A stretch of DNA of 64,000 nt, taken from positions 2,070,043 through 2,134,042 of the forward strand of contig NC_014378.1 of assembly GCF_000144695.1 (NCBI RefSeq). Reading direction: 5' to 3'. Each line of letters begins with the position of its first letter. Position 1 is the stretch's first letter. The DNA comes from Acetohalobium arabaticum DSM 5501. Its GTDB lineage: Bacteria > Bacillota > Halanaerobiia > Halobacteroidales > Acetohalobiaceae. Shown one piece after another: positions 9,308-31,163 of this stretch. The position numbers and the translations under genes were made by a program. The notes beneath the pieces are model-generated. The model was not told where the DNA came from. It made no database searches and was given only the letters and a program-made list of their open reading frames with translations.

Positions 9308-9565
9308 TTGTTATCACCTTTTATATATAGTATATCATATAATGCCTTGGATAGCAATAATATCAAGGCTTAATACAATTACATATAGTTAATATTTAAA
9401 CAAAAATAACCTATTCTTTGATATTGAATCAAAGAATAGGTAGTAAATTCATCACCCATATAAATAAGGGTGGGTTCTTTACTTTTTGTCCTAAATCCGC
9501 ATAGTTAAGTCATAAATTAAATGCAGCTCAAATAATTATTTGTTAGAAGTTATGAGGTGATGAAG

Positions 9566-11251
9566 TTGAGTAAAATGGAAGTTATCAATTTAAAGACCGA
9601 TATCTTAATCATCGGTGGCGGAGCAGCAGGCTGTTATGCTGGAATTATGGGTAAGAAATATAATGAAGATATAGATATATTAATTGTAGAGAAAGCCCAG
9701 ATAGAAAGAAGCGGCTGTTTAGCAGCCGGAATCAGTGCTTTAAATGCTTATTTAAATCCCGATCAGACGCCGGAGTCCTTTTTAGATTACATAAAAGAAG
9801 ATTCAGAGGGATTGGTTAGAGATGATTTGATTTATACCATAGCTAAGGGAGTAAATGAAGCCGCCCATAATCTTGAGGACTGGGGAGTTCCTTTCTTAAA
9901 AGATGAGGCAGGCAATTATCTGACCAAAGGTTCTAGAAGTATCAGAATTAATGGAGAACAGATCAAACCAATTCTGGCTAAGAAGGTTAAAGAGAGCGGA
10001 GTTAGAGTCTTAAATAGAATCAATGTAACTAACTATATAGTCCACAATGGTCAAGTACGAGGAGCATTTGGATTTGGGGTCCGGAATAATAAATTTTATG
10101 TACTTCAAGCCAAAGCAGTTATCTGTGCTACCGGAGGAGCAGCTGGAATTTATCGTCCCAATAATCCCGGCCAAGCAAGACATAAGATCTGGTACTGTCC
10201 GTTCAATACAGGAGCCGGTTATGCAATGGGGATTAGAGCTGGAGCTGAAATGACAACCTTTGAAATGAGATTTATTGCCCTCCGGGCTAAAGATGTAATC
10301 TCTCCAACAGGTACTTTAGCCCAGAGATTTGATGCTAAGCAGGTTAATGTCCTAGGAGAAGAGTACCAAAAGAAGTATAAGAAGAATTCAACTCCTTTCC
10401 GGCTATATGCTACAGTACAAGAAAATCAGAAAGGAAAAGGTCCCTGTTTCCTTGATCTGACCCACCTAAATAAAGAGGAGAGCCAAAGATTGAAGAAATC
10501 TTATTTAAATATGTCGCCTGATATACTACTTAAGTGGGCTGATGAAGATACTGAACCCCATGAACAACAGGTGGAAATTCACGGAACCGAACCCTACATA
10601 GTAGGCGGTCATTCCCAATCAGGTTATTGGATTGATAAAAATCGCCAAACAACCCTCCAGGGACTATACGCAGCAGGAGATGTAGCTGGAGGAGCCCCTA
10701 AAAAGTATGCTACCGGCTGTATGGTTGAGGGAAAAATTGCTGTCTTAAATGCATTAGAATATGTATCCAAGGTAGAAACTTTCGAAATAGATAATGGACT
10801 TATAACCCAGGAGTTAAATCGTCTAGTCAGTCCCCTAAAAAAAGAAGCAGGTTTTCCTGCCCCCGCCTTAGAAAAAAGACTACAGAAGATAATGGATGAG
10901 TACGCAGGGGGGTTGAGTACTAACTATCAACTACAGGAAGAAAAGTTATTAACCGCCCGAAGATTACTCCACAAACTAAACCAGGACTTAACTAAAGGTC
11001 AGGCCAATAATAAACATCAATTAATGAAACTTCAGGAAGTAATTGATAAAGTAAAAGTCAGCCAGGTATTGGTTGAACATCTGCTATACCGAAAAGAGAC
11101 TAGATGGAGAGGATATCAGGAACGAGTTGATTATCCTGATAAGGATGATGAAAACTGGTTTAAATTTGTTAACTCCATTTATAATAATAAGAAGGATAAA
11201 ATTGAAATTATTGAGCGGAAACATAAGGAGATTGATCCAAATGACAGTTAA
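9566..11251 (+). CDS. aprA: AprA-like adenylylsulfate reductase alpha subunit
   Basis: FAD subunit of the adenylylsulfate (APS) reductase family (about 561 aa). This is somewhat shorter than AprA of sulfate reducers (about 620-660). FAD motif GGGAAGCYAG at the N-terminus; FAD-binding SGCLAAGISALNAY; an active-site style Arg in FEMRFIALRAK and a His in VGGHSQSGYW. Start: TTG at 9566 has GAGGTG about 6 bases upstream; ATG 9560 and GTG 9557 lie in or against that site, and ATG 9575 is also possible. It overlaps the AprB-like gene by 11 bases. No sat, qmo or dsr genes are nearby, so the substrate (APS/sulfite or other) is uncertain. Confidence 0.85.
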   Translation: MSKMEVINLKTDILIIGGGAAGCYAGIMGKKYNEDIDILIVEKAQIERSGCLAAGISALNAYLNPDQTPESFLDYIKEDSEGLVRDDLIYTIAKGVNEAAHNLEDWGVPFLKDEAGNYLTKGSRSIRINGEQIKPILAKKVKESGVRVLNRINVTNYIVHNGQVRGAFGFGVRNNKFYVLQAKAVICATGGAAGIYRPNNPGQARHKIWYCPFNTGAGYAMGIRAGAEMTTFEMRFIALRAKDVISPTGTLAQRFDAKQVNVLGEEYQKKYKKNSTPFRLYATVQENQKGKGPCFLDLTHLNKEESQRLKKSYLNMSPDILLKWADEDTEPHEQQVEIHGTEPYIVGGHSQSGYWIDKNRQTTLQGLYAAGDVAGGAPKKYATGCMVEGKIAVLNALEYVSKVETFEIDNGLITQELNRLVSPLKKEAGFPAPALEKRLQKIMDEYAGGLSTNYQLQEEKLLTARRLLHKLNQDLTKGQANNKHQLMKLQEVIDKVKVSQVLVEHLLYRKETRWRGYQERVDYPDKDDENWFKFVNSIYNNKKDKIEIIERKHKEIDPNDS

Positions 11252-19933: not shown

Positions 19934-20578
19934 ATGGTTAAGAAAAAACGAAGCCGGAGCCGGAATCCAAAAAATAATTCATCAAACGATAAAGAAAAAA
20001 AATCCAACACTAATCAAACTAAACAACAAACTAATCAAAAATCAGAAACCGAAACAAAAAAGAAAAATTCTAAAAAGAAAAATAAATCTCAAGTAAAAGA
20101 AACAAAAACTCAAAATAATTTACAAAGAAAGACCTCCCCTAATAACACTTCTACTAATGTCAGCCTAACAAGTTTAATGAAGTCTAATTTAAAAGGAGTT
20201 ATATCTGATTTACGCACTTTTACAGATAATATAGAACAGATAATCAATCTAGTAAATACAATTGAGCAGATGGGACCAATTATCAAACAATTAAGCAAGA
20301 TACAGGCCCAAAATGACGGCGAATTAAATCTAGAAACTGTATTATCGCACACTAATCTTGATCTATCAAATATAAAATCAGGATCTACTGAACAAAATCC
20401 ACATAATCAACATGAAAAAAATGAATCAGATTCACGTAATCCTAAATCTTTTAATAAGAATTCTGATGATACTAACTCCCATGGCCAAAAGCATACAGAT
20501 TCTGAATCTGATGGGATCGACAAATCAGAATTAAGTGATCTTCTAGCAGAAGTATTATCGAAAAAATTATCAGAGTAA
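19934..20578 (+). CDS. Low-complexity protein, probable spore coat component
   Basis: A 214 aa protein of unknown family. Residues 1-75 are Lys/Asn/Ser/Thr-rich with KKKNSKKK-like runs. Residues about 80-125 form a conserved-looking helical stretch (SLMKSNLKGVISDLRTF...INLVNTIEQMGPIIKQL). The rest is polar with His/Asn/Ser and an acidic end. GGAGGG lies before the ATG, a sigma-K-type promoter upstream, and a strong terminator after. Composition and promoter suggest a late-sporulation coat protein; there is no direct homology evidence. Confidence 0.75.
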   Translation: MVKKKRSRSRNPKNNSSNDKEKKSNTNQTKQQTNQKSETETKKKNSKKKNKSQVKETKTQNNLQRKTSPNNTSTNVSLTSLMKSNLKGVISDLRTFTDNIEQIINLVNTIEQMGPIIKQLSKIQAQNDGELNLETVLSHTNLDLSNIKSGSTEQNPHNQHEKNESDSRNPKSFNKNSDDTNSHGQKHTDSESDGIDKSELSDLLAEVLSKKLSE

Positions 20579-20629: not shown

Positions 20630-21841
20630 TTAATTTTGTTTCTTCAATATTTCTATTGTTTCAGCTGCATTAACTAAACCTGATCCCTGTTTTGCCGAAT
20701 CAATAGAGTCTAATAAAACAGCTCCTTCTTTTATAGCCTCTTTAATTTTAGCTGGTGTTAGATTATCAAATTTGCCAAGTATTAAAGCAGTAATACCTGT
20801 TACATGAGGAGCAGCCATTGATGTACCGTCAAGTTTATTAAATTGCCCATTCTTCCAAGTAGATTGAACATCAACCCCAGGGGCAAGAACATCTAAATTA
20901 CTACCATAATTACTGAAGTCAGCAAGTTTTTTATCTTCATTTACTGCTCCAACAGCAATCACTTCTGGATAACGAGCTGGAAAATCAACTGTAGTAGCAC
21001 CATCATTACCGGCTGCTGCTACCATTGTAATTCCAGCTTCATAAGTTTTAACAATTGCCTCCTGCAAAGTATCATTACCTTTATCAACTCCAAAACTCAT
21101 ATTCAAAACCTGCAAATCATTATCAATGCTCCACTGTAAGGCTTCAATTAAGGAAGACATTTTAGCAGAACCATCTTTGTCAAATGCCTTAACTGGATAT
21201 AATTTAATAGCAGGAGCTACTCCTACTATTCCTCTTCCATTCTTACGCGCAGCTATTGTTCCAGCAACATGAGTGCCATGTCCATTTTGGTCTTCAGGCT
21301 GTTGGGCAGAATTAATTGGATTATAACCTGAATTAATAGGCGATAGATCAAAGTGATTTAAATCAATTCCAGTATCAATAATGCCAACTTTAGCTTTTAG
21401 CTCAGACCAAGCATCTGAAGCATTAATTTCTTCTATTCCCCAGGGAATAAAATCTCCGGATGATGATTTAATTTCTAAAGTTAAGTCTTCATCTACTCTC
21501 CTTACTCCAGGCATAGATTCAACTTCAGCTAGATGGTCTTCATCTTCTAATTGACAAGCAACGCCATTAATCAAAGGTAATTTCTTTTTCAGCTGTCCCA
21601 TTTCTCTCTGTAATTCTACCTTCTCTTGTAATTCATTTTCATTTAATTGATGATCATGAACTATTATATAATCTGATAAATTCTTTTTCTTAGAGTTATT
21701 TCTTCTGCGGCTAGGATTACTGGCTCGAGAACTATCTTTTTGTCGCCTAGAGTAACTTCCAAAATCAAATCCATTATTCCCAGTTATCTGCTGTAAAATG
21801 AGAATTGTAATTAAAGTTTCTATCGGATCAGCTAAAGACAT
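20630..21841 (-). CDS. Subtilisin-like serine protease, module A
   Basis: Family S8 protease, about 403 aa. The catalytic triad is visible: Asp in IIDTGIDLNH, His in NGHGTHVAGT, Ser in GTSMAAPH. An inhibitor-like prodomain spans about 55-125. There is no classical signal peptide. Instead residues 3-20 are ADPIETLITILILQQIT, a hydrophobic tag shared with the neighbouring micro-proteins (DADPVVILIVILILQQV). An ATG at 21841 or a TTG one codon earlier are both near AAGGAGGG. It is divergent from the micro-protein genes. A paralogue is at 25744-27015. Probably a sporulation protease (context). Confidence 0.92.
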   Translation of the reverse strand: MSLADPIETLITILILQQITGNNGFDFGSYSRRQKDSSRASNPSRRRNNSKKKNLSDYIIVHDHQLNENELQEKVELQREMGQLKKKLPLINGVACQLEDEDHLAEVESMPGVRRVDEDLTLEIKSSSGDFIPWGIEEINASDAWSELKAKVGIIDTGIDLNHFDLSPINSGYNPINSAQQPEDQNGHGTHVAGTIAARKNGRGIVGVAPAIKLYPVKAFDKDGSAKMSSLIEALQWSIDNDLQVLNMSFGVDKGNDTLQEAIVKTYEAGITMVAAAGNDGATTVDFPARYPEVIAVGAVNEDKKLADFSNYGSNLDVLAPGVDVQSTWKNGQFNKLDGTSMAAPHVTGITALILGKFDNLTPAKIKEAIKEGAVLLDSIDSAKQGSGLVNAAETIEILKKQN

Positions 21842-21874
21842 CAATTAACTCCCTCCTTAGAATTAAGTCTAATA

Positions 21875-21904
21875 TATACTATGCTAACTATTACTAAATC
21901 GGGA
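21875..21904 (-). promoter_or_regulatory. Conserved promoter block, subtilase A
   Basis: Minus-strand CATAGTATA preceded at 17 bases by CC-GATTTAG. The block TCCCGATTTAGTAAT...CATANTATA is conserved in front of the second subtilase. It resembles mother-cell sigma-K/E promoters with CC in place of AC. Confidence 0.5.
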
Positions 21905-21933
21905 GTCAATTTAAAATATAATTAAAGTAACTA

Positions 21934-22047
21934 ATGGAAAACCAAAACAACCCTTTTGGTGGTCAAATCGATATTGAACTACTTTTAAGCAGTATACTTC
22001 CATTTCTCTTCTTTTTCTTCTTCAGACGTTTCTTCAGAAGATATTAA
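21934..22047 (+). CDS. Hydrophobic Phe/Arg-ended micro-protein
   Basis: 37 aa beginning MENQNNPFGGQ, then a hydrophobic helix (LLLSSILPFLFFFFF) and a basic end RRFFRRY. This is a plausible single-pass membrane peptide. Its ribosome site is weak, but it is followed by a strong terminator, which supports transcription. There is no equivalent in module B. It is similar in style to small sporulation membrane proteins; no family recognised. Confidence 0.45.
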   Translation: MENQNNPFGGQIDIELLLSSILPFLFFFFFRRFFRRY

Positions 22048-22082
22048 AAAAATATATTTGAAATCCAATTAAACTACTTTTT

Positions 22083-22112
22083 AATCAGAGCTACTTTATT
22101 GTAGCTCTGATT
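22083..22112 (+). terminator. Strong intrinsic terminator
   Basis: 12-bp perfect stem AATCAGAGCTAC / GTAGCTCTGATT, 6-base loop, then TTTTC. It lies after the 37-aa micro-protein frame. Confidence 0.85.
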
Positions 22113-22201
22113 TTTTCAATTAACATATAAGACAGTTCAATCCTTTTGAAGCTGTTATCAAAACATTCCCTAATCTTTTTTTATATGAATAATAGAATTG
22201 C

Positions 22202-22229
22202 ACGATTAAGGTCAAACTTACATACTATA
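22202..22229 (+). promoter_or_regulatory. Sigma-K-type promoter
   Basis: AC, 17 bases, CATACTATA, with GATTA after the AC as in module B. It precedes the 47-aa micro-protein gene. Confidence 0.7.
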
Positions 22230-22274
22230 TTATTGAGTGAAATTAAAAACGCTTATGAGAGAGGAGGAGTAATA

Positions 22275-22418
22275 ATGCAAGAAGAATCCTTCGGATTTGA
22301 ATCTGCTGAATTAGAGCGCTACTTCGGCAGCTTTTTTCAAATACTAATCTGGGTCTTTGCTTTTATAATTATTTTTGATCACTTCGGTGGCGGCTTTGGC
22401 GGATTATTTAATGAATAA
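22275..22418 (+). CDS. Gly/Phe-ended membrane micro-protein
   Basis: 47 aa: acidic N-terminus (MQEESFGFESAELERYF), one hydrophobic helix (FFQILIWVFAFIIIF), then a GGGFGGLFNE tail. The start is ATG 22275 with GAGGAGG upstream; the longer in-frame version has no ribosome site. The tail resembles the 61-aa protein at 27765 (GGGFGGLFGEE). The sigma-K-type promoter and company suggest a sporulation membrane or coat peptide of the YjcZ style. The corresponding gene is deleted in module B. Confidence 0.75.
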   Translation: MQEESFGFESAELERYFGSFFQILIWVFAFIIIFDHFGGGFGGLFNE

Positions 22419-22476
22419 TCAAATTATAGATAAAATAACTGAATCAATTTTTGATCTATTCTAACATATAAGGCTC

Positions 22477-22504
22477 ACAATCCTAACTCCAAAGACATAT
22501 TATA
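22477..22504 (+). promoter_or_regulatory. Sigma-K-type promoter
   Basis: AC, 17 bases, CATATTATA; nearly identical in sequence and spacing to 27243-27270 in module B. Confidence 0.7.
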
Positions 22505-22587
22505 TTATGAAAATTATAAATCAAAACCAAGTTTGAATCTACATTTTAATACTAATACCTTTAAAACAAAGAAAGGAGGTATTCCCA

Positions 22588-22698
22588 ATGCCAGGAGGAT
22601 TTGATTATTTCGACGCTGACCCTGTTGTAATCTTAATCGTCATTCTCATCTTACAACAGGTTGGAAAAGGTGTTTTCAGTCATCACTATGACTATTAA
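22588..22698 (+). CDS. Micro-protein with DP-LI-ILxLQQ hydrophobic motif (A)
   Basis: 36 aa, starting MPGGFDYFDADPVV followed by hydrophobic ILIVILILQQV and a short polar tail. AAAGGAGGT sits 8 bases before the ATG. The paralogue at 27348 is nearly identical. The DP-x3-LI-x-ILILQQ signature recurs at the N-terminus of both subtilases in this region, which points to a shared membrane or assembly site. It is in the YjcZ/sporulation-peptide size class; function unknown. Confidence 0.82.
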   Translation: MPGGFDYFDADPVVILIVILILQQVGKGVFSHHYDY

Positions 22699-22754
22699 AC
22701 AATAACTCGCTAATTCTAAATTGATATTTTCAAAAAAGAAAGGAGGTTAAAAAG

Positions 22755-22874
22755 ATGCCTGGACATGATCATGATTTATGCGGCTGCGGCTGCTATATTG
22801 AATTAATTTTGGTGGTCTTTCTAATTAGCTGCCTCTGCCGTGGAGGAGTATTTGGATTCTTCGATGCAGACTAA
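22755..22874 (+). CDS. Cys-rich hydrophobic micro-protein (A)
   Basis: 39 aa: MPGHDHDLCGCGCYIEL, hydrophobic ILVVFLISCLC, then RGGVFGFFDAD. Five cysteines around one membrane-length helix suggest disulfide cross-linking in the coat or metal binding. AAAGGAGG lies upstream. The paralogue at 27509 keeps all five cysteines. It forms an operon with the previous micro-protein and is followed by a hairpin terminator. Confidence 0.82.
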   Translation: MPGHDHDLCGCGCYIELILVVFLISCLCRGGVFGFFDAD

Positions 22875-22892
22875 ATAATAGATAATTAAGTT

Positions 22893-22930
22893 AAAACAGT
22901 TAGGGTTAGAAGAACTAGCCCTGACTGTTT
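22893..22930 (+). terminator. Terminator after micro-protein operon A
   Basis: Imperfect stem AAACAGTTAGGGTTAG / ACTAGCCCTGACTGTTT. The equivalent at 27642-27674 is perfect. Confidence 0.7.
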
Positions 22931-22964
22931 CTATCCTTATAAATAATTGAAAGGAAAGATTACT

Positions 22965-23573
22965 TTGTCAAATTATAACCAAATTAAAAACTTTTATCGA
23001 AAACGATATTCAAGTTCTAATAAGTCACATAAGGCAGTGGGATGGGAATCTGAACAGAAACAATACAAGAGATTTAAAGCTTTAATCAAAAATTTTGATC
23101 AAGAATTACTTAAAAAAGAAAGTATTGTAGATTTTGGTTGTGGATTAGCCGATTTATTACCCTGGTTACAGAAAAGAAGCTTGGCAGAAAAATATATAGG
23201 AGTAGATATAATGGAAGAGTTTTTAAAGGATAATAGAAAAAAATTCCCTGAATTCAGATTCATTGATACAGGGTCCTTCTTAAAAAAGCCACAAAAGTAC
23301 GGCTTTATAGTAGCAAGCGGTGTCTTTACATTATCCTGGGGACAGAATCACCGTAAACAGATTAAAGATATGATCAAAAGACTTTACAATAAATCATACC
23401 ATGGCTTTTCCTTTAATATGATAAGTTCTTTTTATCCTAAGACTAAAAAGAATTACTACTACTTTAATCCATTAAAAATGGGTGAATTCTGCACATCAAT
23501 AACTGAAAGATTAATTATTGATTGTAGCTATTTGCCAGAAGATTTTACAATTACCCTATTTAAGAATAGTTAA
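22965..23573 (+). CDS. SAM-dependent methyltransferase
   Basis: 202 aa class I methyltransferase with SAM motif I VDFGCGLADLL (about 65-75) and motif II-like GVDIMEEF. The start is TTG 22965 with AAAGGAAAG about 7 bases upstream; an earlier TTG (22947) lacks a ribosome site. Its substrate is unknown. It lies in the sporulation block behind the micro-protein terminator, so it is probably separately expressed. Related UbiE/Trm-like folds are broad, so I do not assign a function. Confidence 0.8.
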   Translation: MSNYNQIKNFYRKRYSSSNKSHKAVGWESEQKQYKRFKALIKNFDQELLKKESIVDFGCGLADLLPWLQKRSLAEKYIGVDIMEEFLKDNRKKFPEFRFIDTGSFLKKPQKYGFIVASGVFTLSWGQNHRKQIKDMIKRLYNKSYHGFSFNMISSFYPKTKKNYYYFNPLKMGEFCTSITERLIIDCSYLPEDFTITLFKNS

Positions 23574-23616
23574 AGAAGACAGCCCGTTAATAATAAGCTG
23601 TCCTCTAACTATGGAT

Positions 23617-25032
23617 TTAATGTGTAGTAGGCTGCGGCTCTTCATTCTCTTTCTCCATAAAATTAATATTAGATTCCGATACTGGATCTGCACCTAATTG
23701 TGGATAACCAGCATAATCCACGCCTAATACTTTAGCCAACTCCTGGTCTACAGAGACCAGGTCCTTACGATTTAGTTGGGCTAAATCAGTCTTTCCTAAT
23801 GAATAAGCAGTTAACTTCATTTCTTCTAGACATGACTTCAAAAATTTAGCCAGATGTTCTGCAGCTTCCTCTACATCTAAATCTTCCTTGAATTTTCCTA
23901 GATATAACGGGATCTGAGGCGGCGGTTCCTGAGGTAAGGCCTTAGACATCTGCGTCTGCAAAAGAGCCATTAATGCAATTGAGCCGATATAAACAGCATC
24001 TGCTCCCAAAGCTAAAGCCTTTAGAAAATGTCCCGGCGTCGTTAAGCCACCAGAAGCAATAACTGAAACTCGATCTTTAACTCCCTTTTCTTCTAAAAAT
24101 TTCACTGCTCGTGATAAAGCATAAAGCGTCGGCAGCCCGACATCATCCTGTAAGGTAGTAGGACCACCGTGGGTACCAGCCTCAGCGCCGTCAATTACTA
24201 CATAGTCAACCCCGGCTTTGACAGCTATCTCCAATTCCTGTTCTAAATAATGGGTTGCACAGAACTTGAGTCCCACTGGTACTCCATACTCATCTCTAAG
24301 CTGCTGGACAATCTCGAAAAAGTCAGACGGCTGCTTCATTTCTGACAAGCGGGTATGAATGACCGCCTTCTCTCCTGGCTCCAGATCCTTAGCCTGACGC
24401 AGATCTTCGCCGATCTGAGTAGGAGACATTCCCATCGGTGCTGCTGCCTGCGCTCCCTGTCCTAGCTGAATTTCGATTGCATCCAACCGGCTTAGCTGTT
24501 CAGGCTGATTCATCCAGCCGCCGCGGTTATACTGACCGATAAAGTAGTCTGCTTCCTCTCGTTCCTCATCAATTAATGGTGCCTCACCGGAGTTAGTAGC
24601 CGTTCCAGCCATGGCAGAAGCTCTGGCTAAAGCTACTTTAGCATTTAAACTCAAAGCTCCGCCGTAAGACATCCCGGCTAATAGAATCGGCAGTTCTAAT
24701 TTAAGAGGGTTTTCAGCCTGAGGACCAATAGTCGTTTTAGTCTGAATCTGTACTCCATCCTGAGTTGGTAGTTTAAATAAATGAACCGGATTTAAAAATA
24801 GTTTCTGCCATTCAGATTGAACATTAGGACTACCTAACGGTCGTTCAATGGGCTTACCGGATTCAGCCCGCATTCCGGCTTCTATAATTGCTTTTGGACT
24901 CAATTTCTTCATAATAGTAATAAAAGAAAATAGATTTTCTGTATAGGGCTCCTGCATCATCCGATTCATCATATGATCCATCATATTATCCATCATACCC
25001 ATCATTATTTTATTCATTAACTTTTTAAACAT
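23617..25032 (-). CDS. FMN-binding glutamate-synthase-like protein with Met-rich N-terminus
   Basis: 471 aa with the FMN domain of the glutamate synthase large subunit (about 80-420): LLAGMSYGGALSLNAK, GVDYVVIDGAEAGTHGGP and VIASGGLTTPGHFLKALALGADAVYIG. There is no glutaminase domain. The first 27 residues contain ten methionines in MM pairs with Asp/His, which could bind metal. Stand-alone members occur in many sporeformers with unknown substrate. It is downstream of two small coat-type genes on the same strand, so it may be co-expressed during sporulation. Confidence 0.87.
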   Translation of the reverse strand: MFKKLMNKIMMGMMDNMMDHMMNRMMQEPYTENLFSFITIMKKLSPKAIIEAGMRAESGKPIERPLGSPNVQSEWQKLFLNPVHLFKLPTQDGVQIQTKTTIGPQAENPLKLELPILLAGMSYGGALSLNAKVALARASAMAGTATNSGEAPLIDEEREEADYFIGQYNRGGWMNQPEQLSRLDAIEIQLGQGAQAAAPMGMSPTQIGEDLRQAKDLEPGEKAVIHTRLSEMKQPSDFFEIVQQLRDEYGVPVGLKFCATHYLEQELEIAVKAGVDYVVIDGAEAGTHGGPTTLQDDVGLPTLYALSRAVKFLEEKGVKDRVSVIASGGLTTPGHFLKALALGADAVYIGSIALMALLQTQMSKALPQEPPPQIPLYLGKFKEDLDVEEAAEHLAKFLKSCLEEMKLTAYSLGKTDLAQLNRKDLVSVDQELAKVLGVDYAGYPQLGADPVSESNINFMEKENEEPQPTTH

Positions 25033-25070
25033 CTGATTCCTCCTTTCTTAACTGCTAACCCTTAAATTAC

Positions 25071-25355
25071 TTACTCAACAGGTTCTATTTTGTCATCCTT
25101 TAATCCTTTCTGCTCCCAGCTAATAATTTCACTCTCTATCTCCTGCTGACTGGCTGTAGTTACCTCAGACCATCCTTTTGTTTGCATCAAATTAAATAAT
25201 TCAGTATGCAGCACTTCCATATCTTTATTTAGATCATGAAATACTTCCCGCAGTGATTTATTAGCCGCTTCTAATTCTGATTTAGTATAAGTCTGAATTA
25301 ACTGCTCCATCATAATCAACATATCTCTTGCCATTTCTTTATCTTGCAGATTCAT
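25071..25355 (-). CDS. CotF-like spore coat protein
   Basis: 94 aa helical protein matching the coat F/ferritin-like small family: DKEMARDMLIMMEQLI...LREVFHDLNKDMEVLHTELFNLMQTKGW. This includes the hallmark LFNLMQxKGW. It is predicted to be in the spore coat, assembled by the mother cell. It sits 21 bases downstream of another small helical coat-type gene and upstream of the FMN protein on the same strand. Confidence 0.85.
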   Translation of the reverse strand: MNLQDKEMARDMLIMMEQLIQTYTKSELEAANKSLREVFHDLNKDMEVLHTELFNLMQTKGWSEVTTASQQEIESEIISWEQKGLKDDKIEPVE

Positions 25356-25376
25356 TTTTTATCCTCCCTAATTAGA

Positions 25377-25583
25377 TTAATGTTCCTGCCCATTGAAGTT
25401 TCGTAGTTGATTCAATAATGTTTGCAGCTGATTTTGATGGGCCTGTTCGGCTTCCTGAAAGATATTATTTAATTCAGTATCCTGTACCTGTTGCTGATAA
25501 TTTTTGCATTTTTTTAATGCTAGAGCAATAATATTCATCTGATTCTTAATCTTCTTTAATTCCATCTGAGTTAACTGTTCCAT
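25377..25583 (-). CDS. Small helical coat-associated protein
   Basis: 68 aa, almost wholly helical, starting MEQLTQMELKKIKNQMNII and containing ALALKKCKNYQQQ and HQNQLQTLLNQL. ATG 25583 is preceded by AAGGAGGG at 8 bases; a longer frame would start inside other sequence. It is similar in style to small proteins that accompany CotF-type genes. It is first in the likely operon with the CotF-like gene and the FMN protein. Confidence 0.75.
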   Translation of the reverse strand: MEQLTQMELKKIKNQMNIIALALKKCKNYQQQVQDTELNNIFQEAEQAHQNQLQTLLNQLRNFNGQEH

Positions 25584-25704
25584 ATTGAGTTCCCTCCTTA
25601 TCATTACTATCACCTAAAAGACAGCTTATTATATAAAACATTTAGTTACAATTAATGTTAAAACAAATAGTAATAAAAATAGAATTAATTAAATATATAT
25701 TAAA

Positions 25705-25736
25705 TAGCGGTAAGGTTAGGTCTAACCTTACCGCTA
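25705..25736. terminator. Terminator of subtilase B
   Basis: 15-bp perfect stem TAGCGGTAAGGTTAG / CTAACCTTACCGCTA with a 2-base centre, just after the subtilase stop on the minus strand. Confidence 0.8.
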
Positions 25737-25743
25737 AAGAGTC

Positions 25744-27015
25744 CTAAGTTTGCTTTTTTAGTAATTCTATTGTTTGGGCTGCATCGACTAAGCCTGCTCC
25801 TTGTTTAACTGGAGCAATAGATTGTAGTGGGGTAGCTCCTCTCTTTATAGCTCTTTTAATTCTAGCTGGAGTTAGATTATTAAACTTGCCAAGTATCAAA
25901 GCAGCAATGCCTGTTACATGAGGAGTGGCCATTGAAGTACCATTAAGCTCATTAAATTGTCCATCTTTCCAAGTAGATTGAACATTAACTCCAGGCGCAA
26001 CTATATCTAAGCCAGTACCATAATTACTGAAATCAGCAAGTCTTTTATCTTTATTTACTGCTCCAACAGCAATTACCTCCGGATAACGGGCTGGAAAATT
26101 GACGGCAGCAGTACTATCATTACCTGCAGCTGCTACCATCGTAATTCCAGCTTCATGAACTTTAGCAATTGCTTCCCGTAAAGAATTATTATTTTTATCA
26201 ACTCCAAAGCTCATATTTAGCACCCCTAGATTATTATCAATACTCCATTGTAAAGCCTCAATCAAATCAGACATCTTAGCAGAACCATCTTTGTCAAATG
26301 CCTTAACTGGATATAATTCAATATTAGGAGCTACTCCTACTACACCTTTACCATTCTTTCGGGCAGATATTGTACCAGCAACATGAGTACCATGGCCATT
26401 TGGGTCGTAGGGCCGTTGGTTAGGCTCAACAGTATTATAACCTGAATTGATAGGTGATAGATCAAAATGATTTAAGTCGATACCTGTATCGATAATCCCT
26501 ACCTTTACTTCTAGATCAGACCAGGCATCTAAAGTATTAATTGCTTCTATACCCCAGGGTACCATATCCCCTGATAATGATTGTTCAGATTCTAATTCAA
26601 AATCTAACGATTTAATTTCTAAAGTTAAGTCTTCATCTACTCGCTTTACTCCGCGAATAGATTCAACTTCAGCTATATGGTCTTCGTCTTCTAGTCGACA
26701 GGCTACTCCATTAATTAAGGGTAACTTCTTTCTAACCTGCCCCTGTTCTCTCTGTAATTCTACCTTTTCTTGTAATTCATCTTCATTTAAGAGCTGGTCA
26801 TGAACTATTATATAGTCTCCTGAGTCACCTTTAGAGTCTTTACTAGTCTCCTTCTTCCTCTGATCAGGTTCATTATACTCTCGGCCTGGCTGTTGCTGGG
26901 CTCCATCTTTCCTTTGACCAGAGTAACCTCCAAAATTTAAACCACTAACTTTAATAGTTATCTGCTGTAAAACAAGAATGGTAATCAAAGTCTCTATCGG
27001 ATCAGCTGAATACAT
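25744..27015 (-). CDS. Subtilisin-like serine protease, module B
   Basis: 423 aa paralogue of the protease at 20630, with the triad in IIDTGIDLNH, NGHGTHVAGT and GTSMATPH. It has the same N-terminal hydrophobic tag (ADPIETLITILVLQQIT, residues 4-20), a 20-residue longer linker, and an extra insert before the catalytic domain. AAGGAGGTG lies 9 bases before the ATG. It is divergent from micro-protein genes as in module A, so the whole module was duplicated. Predicted to be intracellular or forespore/coat-associated (no secretion signal). Confidence 0.92.
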   Translation of the reverse strand: MYSADPIETLITILVLQQITIKVSGLNFGGYSGQRKDGAQQQPGREYNEPDQRKKETSKDSKGDSGDYIIVHDQLLNEDELQEKVELQREQGQVRKKLPLINGVACRLEDEDHIAEVESIRGVKRVDEDLTLEIKSLDFELESEQSLSGDMVPWGIEAINTLDAWSDLEVKVGIIDTGIDLNHFDLSPINSGYNTVEPNQRPYDPNGHGTHVAGTISARKNGKGVVGVAPNIELYPVKAFDKDGSAKMSDLIEALQWSIDNNLGVLNMSFGVDKNNNSLREAIAKVHEAGITMVAAAGNDSTAAVNFPARYPEVIAVGAVNKDKRLADFSNYGTGLDIVAPGVNVQSTWKDGQFNELNGTSMATPHVTGIAALILGKFNNLTPARIKRAIKRGATPLQSIAPVKQGAGLVDAAQTIELLKKQT

Positions 27016-27056
27016 CTATTTACACACCTCCTTCCTCCTTAGAATAAAGTCTAGTA

Positions 27057-27086
27057 TATAATATGTTAATCATTACTAAATCGGGA
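27057..27086 (-). promoter_or_regulatory. Conserved promoter block, subtilase B
   Basis: CATATTATA on the minus strand with CC-GATTTAG 17 bases upstream; the same block as before subtilase A. Confidence 0.5.
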
Positions 27087-27167
27087 ATGATTTTGTCGTA
27101 AAATAGATCAAAAGTTATGAATATAACTTAAAATTTGCTTTTTATCTTATATGAAGAACTGTCTTGC

Positions 27168-27195
27168 ACGATTAAAGCAAAACCTCCATATTATA
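27168..27195 (+). promoter_or_regulatory. Sigma-K-type promoter without its gene
   Basis: AC-GATTA..., 17 bases, CATATTATA, equivalent to 22202-22229. The micro-protein gene that follows there is missing here: sequence runs directly into the region after that gene's stop (ATAATCAAATTATAGA). Confidence 0.6.
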
Positions 27196-27242
27196 TAATA
27201 AATAATCAAATTATAGATAAAATAACTGAATAAACTTTCTTC

Positions 27243-27270
27243 ACAATTCTAACTTCAAAAACATATTATA
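27243..27270 (+). promoter_or_regulatory. Sigma-K-type promoter
   Basis: AC, 17 bases, CATATTATA, in front of the module-B micro-protein pair. Confidence 0.7.
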
Positions 27271-27347
27271 TTATGAAAATTATATAAAGAAAATAATTAA
27301 ATCTTTCACTCCAATACTTTCAAACCACAAGAAAGGAGGTATTCCCA

Positions 27348-27452
27348 ATGCCAGGAGGTTTCGATTATTTTGACGCTGACCCTGTTGTAATCTTGATTGT
27401 TATCCTAATCTTACAGCAGGTTGGAAGAGGTGTCTTTGGTTATGACTGTTAA
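27348..27452 (+). CDS. Micro-protein with DP-LI-ILxLQQ motif (B)
   Basis: 34 aa, MPGGFDYFDADPVV then hydrophobic ILIVILILQQV and GRGVFGYDC. It is nearly identical to the 22588 protein over the first 28 residues; only the tail differs and now ends in Cys. The ribosome site AAAGGAGGTATTCCCA is identical. Expected role as for the paralogue: a small sporulation membrane/coat peptide sharing its hydrophobic tag with the subtilases. Confidence 0.82.
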   Translation: MPGGFDYFDADPVVILIVILILQQVGRGVFGYDC

Positions 27453-27508
27453 CCTTACAACTTATTAATCCTAAATTGATATTTTTCAAATGAAAGGAGG
27501 TTAAAAAA

Positions 27509-27628
27509 ATGTCTGGATATGATCGTGATTTCTGTGGCTGCGGTTGCTATGTTGAATTGATTTTGGTGGTCTTTTTAATTAGCTGTCTCTGCCGTGGAGG
27601 AGCATTTGGCATCTTTGATGCAGACTAA
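27509..27628 (+). CDS. Cys-rich hydrophobic micro-protein (B)
   Basis: 39 aa, MSGYDRDFCGCGCYVEL, hydrophobic ILVVFLISCLC, RGGAFGIFDAD. All five cysteines and the DAD end of the 22755 paralogue are kept, showing selection on the protein. AAAGGAGG lies 8 bases upstream. It shares an operon with the preceding micro-protein and ends at a perfect terminator. Confidence 0.82.
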   Translation: MSGYDRDFCGCGCYVELILVVFLISCLCRGGAFGIFDAD

Positions 27629-27641
27629 ATGATTAATTATA

Positions 27642-27674
27642 ATAGTTAGGGTTAGTTTTTCTAACCCTAACTAT
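27642..27674 (+). terminator. Terminator after micro-protein operon B
   Basis: 14-bp perfect stem ATAGTTAGGGTTAG / CTAACCCTAACTAT, TTTTT loop. Confidence 0.8.
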
Positions 27675-27699
27675 TATCCTTTACTTCTATAAATTATTC

Positions 27700-27727
27700 A
27701 CGATTACTCTGTCAGTAACATATGATA
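27700..27727 (+). promoter_or_regulatory. Sigma-K-type promoter
   Basis: AC-GATTA..., 17 bases, CATATGATA, in front of the 61-aa Gly/Phe-rich micro-protein. Confidence 0.7.
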
Positions 27728-27764
27728 TTGTAGAGTAAATTAATAAAAAGGAGGTACATAAAAA

Positions 27765-27950
27765 ATGGAAGAACCTACAACAGAAGGTATGGACCAACCT
27801 ACCACTAAAGAAGTGGAAGATGTGTCTACCGAAGGATTCGGAGGATTTGGTAGTTTCGGCGGTTTTAAATTTGAATGGATTCTAATTCTTATAGCTGTCT
27901 TTCTACTATTTAGCGGCGGCGGATTCGGAGGATTATTTGGAGAAGAATGA
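27765..27950 (+). CDS. Gly/Phe-rich membrane micro-protein
   Basis: 61 aa: acidic Thr/Glu-rich N-terminus with two PTT repeats, a GFGGFGSFGGF stretch, one hydrophobic helix (WILILIAVFLLF), then SGGGFGGLFGEE. The tail matches the 47-aa protein at 22275. AAAAGGAGG precedes the ATG and a strong terminator follows. The sigma-K-type promoter supports a late sporulation role; no recognised family. Confidence 0.8.
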   Translation: MEEPTTEGMDQPTTKEVEDVSTEGFGGFGSFGGFKFEWILILIAVFLLFSGGGFGGLFGEE

Positions 27951-29861: not shown

Positions 29862-31163
29862 TTAAGCTGCAAATTGATGATCATTCCAGCTATATTTAAC
29901 TGGATTTGATAAACCTTTAACCTGCAAAGTAATATCTTTTCCTTTACGTCGCTGCTGTAAGTATTTGCGTAAGATATTAAATGAACCTACACTATCGGCA
30001 TTAAAGGCTTGATTATTATTTTTGTCTACATATAAGCCGCGTTTAATACGATTAGACTTATCACCATATTTTTTAGTTACTTTTTTACTGTAAGGGCTGC
30101 ATTGACTGGTATATTTTTCACTCTTCTTGATTAAAGTAATCCCCTGTAAATTAAGTTTATACTCTAGTTGGTGATAGATAATATCAAAAGGTAGTTTATG
30201 GAGTTTTTGATTGTTCTGTTTACCTAGGTCAGCATCATCACGAATATTTTTTATATCACCAACTATTACTCTAGAAATATTATTTTCAATACAGTAATTA
30301 ACTACTTTTTTAGTTGCACTATGAATTAAGTGAAATAATTGTTTTCGTCGCTTTTTATATAGATTTTGGATACGTTTAGAAGTCTTTTTGCCCTGACCAT
30401 TCAAAATAGATTGATAATGTTTGATTTTTTTATCAAAATAACGATTAATAGCTAAATATTGTCCACCGTCAATAATAAAGCTTTCCTGATTTTGATTACT
30501 GTAACAAGTCATTAGATTATTAATGCCTAGATCAATACTTAAATAATTACCGTTATCTTCTTTAATAGTAGGAGTATCTACTTTATAAGTTAAGATTACC
30601 TTATAAGTATCATCGCTTAAAGGTTTAAACTCAATTCTAGTAGTTGAGTTAAGGACATCTCTATTACTGGATAACAGCTCATTAGGCACTCTTATCCATA
30701 AGAATTTGTTGGTAATAGAGTATTCCTCTTTTAGATACTTTTTTAACTGTTTAGGAATAGATAATCTTAACTTACCATCAATAATTTTAAAACCATTATT
30801 GAGATAACGGAAGTTAAATTTACTGTCTTTAGGTTTATAATTAGGTAGATTAGGTTCACCAGTATATTTATCAGGATTATTTTGATAATCTTTTTTACTT
30901 TGATAAAAACTATCCCAGTTATCAGCTAAAATTTTAAGTGTTTCCTGTGCTGTTTGAGAAGGTAAATTTTTATACCAAAAATTTTCTTTTAATTGCTTTT
31001 TTTGTTTATACCAATCAGGATACTCTTTATCACTATCTTTAGACCAATTTTTACGTTGATAATTGCCGATATTATATAACCTAGCACTAGCATAAGCTAA
31101 ACAACCTAATACAATTTGTTGGGTTTGATTAGGTTTATGAATAAAATATTTAGCTAACTTCAA
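29862..31163 (-). CDS. tnpB: TnpB RNA-guided nuclease
   Basis: 433 aa RuvC-type nuclease that in this family uses an omegaRNA to cut DNA at the empty donor site. RuvC aspartates are in SIDLGINNL and NADSVGSFNI. The usual middle glutamate position reads VIVGDIKNI (no Glu), and the usual CxxC zinc ribbon is reduced to a single Cys (SEKYTSQCSPYS). A Glu just before YTS is shared with the second TnpB here and may be a relocated catalytic residue. TTG start behind GGAGGTGAG. It follows tnpA by about 35 bases. Confidence 0.92.
   Translation of the reverse strand: MKLAKYFIHKPNQTQQIVLGCLAYASARLYNIGNYQRKNWSKDSDKEYPDWYKQKKQLKENFWYKNLPSQTAQETLKILADNWDSFYQSKKDYQNNPDKYTGEPNLPNYKPKDSKFNFRYLNNGFKIIDGKLRLSIPKQLKKYLKEEYSITNKFLWIRVPNELLSSNRDVLNSTTRIEFKPLSDDTYKVILTYKVDTPTIKEDNGNYLSIDLGINNLMTCYSNQNQESFIIDGGQYLAINRYFDKKIKHYQSILNGQGKKTSKRIQNLYKKRRKQLFHLIHSATKKVVNYCIENNISRVIVGDIKNIRDDADLGKQNNQKLHKLPFDIIYHQLEYKLNLQGITLIKKSEKYTSQCSPYSKKVTKKYGDKSNRIKRGLYVDKNNNQAFNADSVGSFNILRKYLQQRRKGKDITLQVKGLSNPVKYSWNDHQFAA

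Follow-up and report, generated by a model that had tools for sequence, protein, structure and literature searches.

A duplicated module of Acetohalobium arabaticum and a short hydrophobic tag common to its subtilisin-like pro-proteases, its microproteins and an acidic protein encoded elsewhere

In Bacillus, short docking segments are already known to place fibre and collagen-like proteins on spores, and F-BclA is proposed to attach to F-ENA fibres through an N-terminal hook that it shares with the fibre subunit (PMC11952670). Meanwhile, YabG is a spore-surface protease under sigma-E/sigma-K control that matures coat proteins (PMC10681294). Here we describe a duplicated module in a 64,000-nucleotide stretch of Acetohalobium arabaticum DSM 5501 (contig NC_014378.1, positions 2,070,043 to 2,134,042; hereafter the window), in which a tag of about 17 residues, (AD)P-x3-LI-x-IL-x-L-Q-Q, is common to a subtilisin-like pro-protease and a microprotein of 33-36 residues, called micro-1. 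Our leading but still tentative reading is that this module acts late in sporulation, with the tag docking proteins and a zymogen at the forespore surface, where autoprocessing would free the enzyme.

In F-ENA, F-BclA and F-Anchor, and in the exosporium leader of BclA, a protein is docked on the spore by a short N-terminal segment that a small spore-surface subunit either has too or is matched to, as would be the case here. The segments themselves differ: LIxILxLQQ resembles neither the F-ENA hook M-P-psi-psi-x-P-psi nor the ExsF-binding leader, and neither was recognized in the tags when compared by eye with the motifs of PMC11952670; besides, the cargo there is a collagen-like fibre protein and here a protease. 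The likeness to YabG lies in the predicted role of a mother-cell surface protease for coat maturation, but YabG, which has SH3-like and CheY-like domains, is a cysteine protease, whereas the Acetohalobium enzyme belongs to peptidase family S8. The germination subtilases CspB and CspBA are spore-associated S8 enzymes with a prodomain, as is predicted here; only weak matches to them were obtained, far below the NCBIfam cut-off (45.5 bits against 1250 for the CspB model NF040809), and sleC is reported missing from A. arabaticum (PMC3533761). Intracellular subtilisins are also S8 enzymes without a secretion signal, and their structures match at about 1e-45; the Acetohalobium proteases differ in having a putative prodomain and an N-terminal tag, and their closest solved sequence is pro-subtilisin E.

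The tag and its carriers

The protease N-termini, ADPIETLITIL(I/V)LQQIT, and micro-1 match the signature DP-x3-LI-x-ILxLQQ exactly, so that the motif which the initial annotation had seen in both is present letter for letter (ADPIETLITILILQQIT and ADPIETLITILVLQQIT in the proteases, DADPVVILIVILILQQV in micro-1). A profile made from the three micro-1 proteins only (A1) and searched against the whole genome in six frames recovers micro-1 and, at E 1.5e-4 and 6.8e-4, the N-termini of both proteases. It also reveals a further carrier, a 98-residue acidic protein at 24.5 kb of the genome that has the tag at its C-terminus (E 3.7e-3); after these six carriers, the next-best match lies at E 0.62. 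The second species of the genus, hereafter the sister species, holds four micro-1 proteins, one C-tagged protein of 94 residues and two tagged proteases, for which A1 gives E 6e-5 and 0.13. All 13 tagged proteins, six from A. arabaticum and seven from the sister species, score E 3e-14 to 3e-10 with a joint profile (A4), and the tag occupies the core of micro-1, the N-terminus of the protease and the C-terminus of the acidic protein.

No comparable A4 match occurs in the 396 other genomes of a 398-genome sample of the phylum (best 0.0046), nor a comparable tag match in the 57 other genomes of a 59-genome sample of the class, and a scan of named genomes found no relatives of micro-1. When 458 hydrophobic segments of other proteins were scored as background, not one did as well as the Acetohalobium protease/micro-1 pairs; along with the genome-wide specificity of A1, this rules out that the tag is a generic hydrophobic stretch, one of the two objections that the initial annotation had foreseen. 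The other, absence from homologous modules, does apply to the DP...LQQ sequence in the orthologous modules of three other genera. A wide distribution among sporeformers is ruled out as well, as profile searches place the sequence in 2/2 Acetohalobium genomes only, and the proposed hidden Markov model search for co-occurrence of the motif with S8 proteases across sporeformers yielded nothing beyond this genus. The tag being known from two genomes only, the sample for evolutionary inference is small.

Among the four Acetohalobium proteases, the proportion of nonsynonymous differences (pN) is 0.00-0.13 in the tag, where that of synonymous differences (pS) is 0.33-0.50, and pN is 0.19-0.47 in the linker versus 0.06-0.13 in the catalytic domain. 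In these enzymes, constraint on the tag matches that on the catalytic domain, and the linker behind the tag evolves freely. Over the 12-residue core, nucleotide identity among protease, micro-1 and C-tag equals the level expected from random synonymous codons for those peptides, so the likeness between classes is maintained, or reached, at the protein level. This rules out recent gene conversion or domain copying as its source, and both common origin and convergence fit the pattern.

As the initial annotation stated, a subtilisin-like protease lies divergent from tiny proteins twice within 7 kb, with agreeing coordinates and PF00082 matches of about 1e-64. The two minus-strand proteases are 71% identical, each divergent from a plus-strand pair of micro-1 and a second microprotein, micro-2, and the modules form a segmental duplication, with direct repeats about 4.8-5.2 kb apart (72-93% identity) spanning protease, promoter, micro-1 and micro-2. 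The features, in window coordinates except for the last line, are:

19934..20578, plus strand: basic coiled-coil-type protein of 214 residues, motif LRTF[AT]DNI[ED]Q; no Pfam match
20630..21844, minus strand: tagged subtilisin-like pro-protease 1, 403-404 residues, tag ADPIETLITILILQQIT; PF00082 at 9.6e-65
21782..21832, minus strand: tag-coding stretch of protease 1; repeat D5
21875..21883, minus strand: -10 element CATAGTATA of protease 1, CCC at the -35 position
22221..22229, plus strand: sigma-K-type -10 element CATACTATA of the 47-residue gene, CAC 20 bases upstream
22276..22418, plus strand: hydrophobic microprotein of 47 residues, C-terminal FGGLFNE; orthologue in the sister species
22476..22509, plus strand: sigma-K-type promoter CAC-N17-CATATTATATTATG of micro-1a; repeat D10
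22588..22698, plus strand: micro-1a, 36 residues, tag DADPVVILIVILILQQV; conserved in 7 paralogues and orthologues
22755..22874, plus strand: micro-2a, 39 residues, CGCGCY-ELILVVFL-CLC, cysteine-rich and hydrophobic
25071..25355, minus strand: CotF-domain protein; PF07875 at 6e-17
25744..27015, minus strand: tagged subtilisin-like pro-protease 2, 423 residues, tag ADPIETLITILVLQQIT; PF00082 at 9.8e-65
27057..27065, minus strand: -10 element CATATTATA of protease 2, CCC at -35
27167..27200, plus strand: orphan sigma-K-type promoter, copy of that of the 47-residue gene; repeats D7 and D8 (window 27167 is genome 2097209)
27242..27275, plus strand: sigma-K-type promoter CAC-N17-CATATTATATTATG of micro-1b; repeat D10
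27348..27452, plus strand: micro-1b, 34 residues, tag DADPVVILIVILILQQV
27509..27628, plus strand: micro-2b, 39 residues, cysteine-rich and hydrophobic
27765..27950, plus strand: hydrophobic microprotein of 61 residues, C-terminal FGGLFGEE, own promoter CAC-N17-CATATGATA; orthologue in the sister species
L028:6315-6611 and L026:7282-7566: C-tagged acidic proteins, 94-98 residues, third class of tag carrier

Each protease begins with the tag (residues 4-20), followed by a variable linker (21-66), a putative I9-like prodomain (about 67-150) and the S8 domain, in which the catalytic triad D176, H208 and S361 and the oxyanion residue N299 are invariant in the alignment; these residues and the PF00082 match place the enzymes in Peptidase S8. 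The prodomain reported by the initial annotation is supported by a phmmer alignment of residues 68-400 of protease 2 to pro-subtilisin E (3whi), but not by the Pfam I9 model, which gives 13.4 bits in protease 1, under its cut-off of 21.2. By inspection, the N-terminus M-[YS]-x-ADPIETLITILILQQIT is not of the secretion type seen in secreted subtilisins, having no basic n-region and acidic residues ahead of the core, in agreement with the claim that a secretion signal is lacking. Enzyme and tag would be parted by a cut at the pro/mature junction, since the tag lies ahead of the prodomain. An AlphaFold2 model of the protease from three sequences was unusable (predicted local distance difference test, pLDDT, 39).

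Micro-2 (CGC[GS]CY-ELILVV-CLC) comes after micro-1 in 7/7 cases; neither window copy has a separate CATANNNTA promoter, and micro-2 is therefore probably co-transcribed with micro-1. Two micro-1/micro-2 pairs, at C1:1.463 Mb of the own genome and C4:138 kb of the sister species, have no adjacent protease. The 47-residue gene of module 1 was lost from module 2, where its promoter was kept as the orphan listed above. The CotF gene and its neighbours, described as interleaved, do include a genuine CotF domain, but they lie between the two modules as a single copy outside the duplication. The gene for the 214-residue coiled-coil-type protein adjoins the protease in most modules and has orthologues in the sister species and in related genera, and in both Acetohalobium species the C-tagged gene is accompanied by genes for a 68-residue protein, an FKK...KVKI protein and, as named by eye, proteins resembling CotJA, CotJB and CotJC. 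Neither Pfam nor NCBIfam has a model that matches micro-1, micro-2 or a 37-residue open reading frame, the 61-residue protein reaches only E 0.84, and no Pfam family exceeded its cut-off for the coiled-coil, 68-71-residue and C-tagged proteins.

The 37-residue frame just mentioned (window 21934-22047) is hydrophobic, divergent from protease 1 and without a clear ribosome-binding site, and is probably not a gene. In the sister species (L025:7425-8781), the glutamate-synthase-domain gene corresponding to window 23617-25032 is split into two open reading frames, and protease 2 is missing there. A TnpB-like open reading frame, named by eye, lies at window 29862-31163, and a near-identical N-terminus occurs at a second genome site (L029:3449-4750).

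Promoters and sporulation genes

The sigma-K-type promoters named in the initial annotation proved real and conserved across the classes of tagged genes. CAC-N17/18-CATANNNTA stands upstream of 7/7 micro-1 genes, both C-tagged genes and most of the 47- and 61-residue genes, as well as upstream of microproteins in Frackibacter and a further genus (G004, below). In the protease promoters (6/6 inspected), CCC occupies the -35 position and the -10 element is CATANNNTA or one mismatch from it. As CATANNNTA alone is not enriched in the window (61 occurrences versus 65 expected on both strands of the 64 kb; a chance match is expected about 0.07 times per 150-base upstream stretch), the promoter evidence consists of position and conservation. 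The long promoter form has seven matches in the own genome at up to two mismatches (two for a control pattern), and five of these seven lie in this module or the C-tag locus. From the CATANNNTA promoters and the presence of sigK in the genome, dependence of these genes on sigma-K is predicted.

SigK exceeds its cut-off in 4/5 genomes and SpoIVA in 5/5, and YabG (TIGR02855) was matched in 0/5, with a positive B. subtilis control. In one of the related genera (G003), sigK is in two pieces about 2 kb apart (C35:22893-23087 and 25073-25543, model positions 7-71 and 69-225), resembling a small skin-type interruption. The promoter class of the module also lies upstream of open reading frames of 363 and 281 residues in the own genome (G000 C1:71632 and 72849; L134 and L136) and, in the sister species, near one of 320 residues; these are possibly further coat genes.

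Orthologous modules in related genera

Orthologous proteases occur in Frackibacter (G002) and in two further genera of the family (G003 and G004) at E 1e-125 to 1e-133, the next best in other families being about 1e-59. Their alignments to the model begin no earlier than about residue 50, and their N-termini (MNIGKLLELILATNLLKQL, MNLNILLKLLLTTNLLSQL and MLSKKLLKTKFLANLFNF) can be aligned to the Acetohalobium tag without gaps and with little identity, so that a hydrophobic N-terminal segment is retained in all three with a different sequence. Four microproteins flank the protease in Frackibacter, and four in G004, and these share [NGS]LI[ND][LV]I[ILV][TV]IFIIQFLF[ES]AL; in G003 none was detected. 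The pattern of a single hydrophobic segment recurring on several proteins of a module thus extends to the microproteins of two further genera, and a clear match between protease and microprotein is found in Acetohalobium only.

For a possible homology of the Acetohalobium and Frackibacter microproteins, hhalign gives in-phase alignments with probabilities of 20% and 2.6%, and in the comparison with background segments 151/458 reach their likeness. The N-terminus of the Frackibacter protease is closer to the C-terminal end of the coiled-coil protein next to it (NLLKQLQPN and SLLKQLMPN; score 43, reached by 4 and 1 of 805 background segments) than to its own microproteins, which is suggestive; this likeness was not clearly reproduced in G004 or Acetohalobium. 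Two different coiled-coil proteins of Frackibacter and G004 (L094:8498-9067 and 10405-11058; L096:7055-7948 and 9312-9785) share the C-terminal motif NN[IL]LMQ[VI][VI]MQ.LL, and one of the two resembles the protease N-terminus. Small module proteins at L094:11691-11951 and L096:6509-6727 have a C-terminal segment like that shared by the microproteins (RLGNILDILLLLQLISI).

Docking at the spore surface and competing explanations

The initial annotation supposed that protease and peptide insert in, or assemble on, the same structure. The shared, conserved tag, the third class of carrier and the sporulation-type promoters make a common assembly site the best reading, with the structure itself a matter of prediction. 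We propose that the module would be expressed late in the mother cell from its sigma-K-type promoters, and that micro-1 and its partner micro-2 may be small structural subunits building or lining a layer at the forespore surface. By homotypic docking, the tag would lay micro-1, the predicted cytoplasmic pro-subtilase and the acidic protein into one such layer, the zymogen being tethered through its prodomain, with tag and variable linker ahead of this inhibitory part. Autoprocessing at the junction of prodomain and catalytic domain would then free the protease inside the layer, where it may mature coat proteins, the role of YabG in other sporeformers.

Several points weigh against this docking scheme. 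Sporulation of A. arabaticum is recorded as "unknown; not observed" (PMC3035264), and the organism has been placed among non-sporogenous strains without bofA, gerM, sleC and others (PMC3533761). The sequence DP-x3-LI-x-IL-x-LQQ is specific to the genus, and elsewhere the likeness of protease N-terminus and microprotein is weak, being equalled or exceeded by 9/458 background segments in Frackibacter and 74/458 in G004. Binding of one tag to another is a prediction from their likeness, the predicted helix of micro-1 (AlphaFold2, residues 12-31, pLDDT 73) would suit a membrane segment too, and the loss of YabG and the presence of this protease need not be connected.

A membrane anchor is the strongest competitor, though we consider it rather unlikely: micro-1, protease and acidic protein would all be embedded in the outer membrane of the forespore or in that of the mother cell, and their likeness would stem from shared insertion needs and partial common descent, not from mutual docking. 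The strong hydrophobicity of the segment and the micro-1 helix agree with this, as do the proteases of other genera, which keep a hydrophobic N-terminus of different sequence as if only hydrophobicity mattered there. However, micro-1 has a hydrophobic core of about 10 residues and the proteases one of 7-9, short for a bilayer span, so that of the "tiny membrane proteins" first annotated, the tiny divergent proteins stand and the membrane part is unproven; moreover, exact residues including LQQ are held between classes although the codons are random, and other hydrophobic segments fail to match.

That micro-1 regulates the protease seems improbable; on this view it would bind either the N-terminal segment of the enzyme or a partner common to both, and so hold the zymogen or compete for its tether. 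Regulation would explain why the two are divergent neighbours in both modules and why the tag lies directly upstream of the prodomain, but not the micro-1/micro-2 pairs without an adjacent protease, nor the tag on a third, non-protease protein. Even less credible is an amyloid-type signalling motif, in which the segment would form a cross-beta template that micro-1 and protease pass to one another, in the manner of NLR-associated amyloid motifs. A short beta-branched segment does recur, whether N-terminal, central or C-terminal, on adjacent genes and on an effector-like enzyme, but no NLR or receptor gene was noticed among the neighbourhood open reading frames read, the promoters are of sporulation type and AlphaFold2 favours a helix. 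Chance or convergent likeness of hydrophobic stretches with no functional link, to which the low-complexity aliphatic composition and codons showing no recent common origin would lend themselves, has been largely refuted by genome-wide specificity, constraint, the third carrier and conservation in the sister species, and we give it hardly any credence.

More speculatively, and with considerable doubt, the docking scheme might extend to a homotypic hydrophobic-tag code in the spore-surface layers of this halophile family, with a sequence specific to each genus, unrelated carriers (coiled-coil proteins among them) that would each be recruited by a version of the segment placed N-terminally, centrally or C-terminally, and a tethered subtilase replacing YabG as the enzyme of coat maturation. 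The 17-residue tag makes docking directly testable by fusion and peptide binding. If docking at the spore surface is correct, a zymogen sharing its segment with a microprotein subunit would represent a new way to deliver and hold a maturation enzyme in the coat, and the protease would be a candidate to fill the place of the missing YabG, in organisms whose spore coats have received little study.

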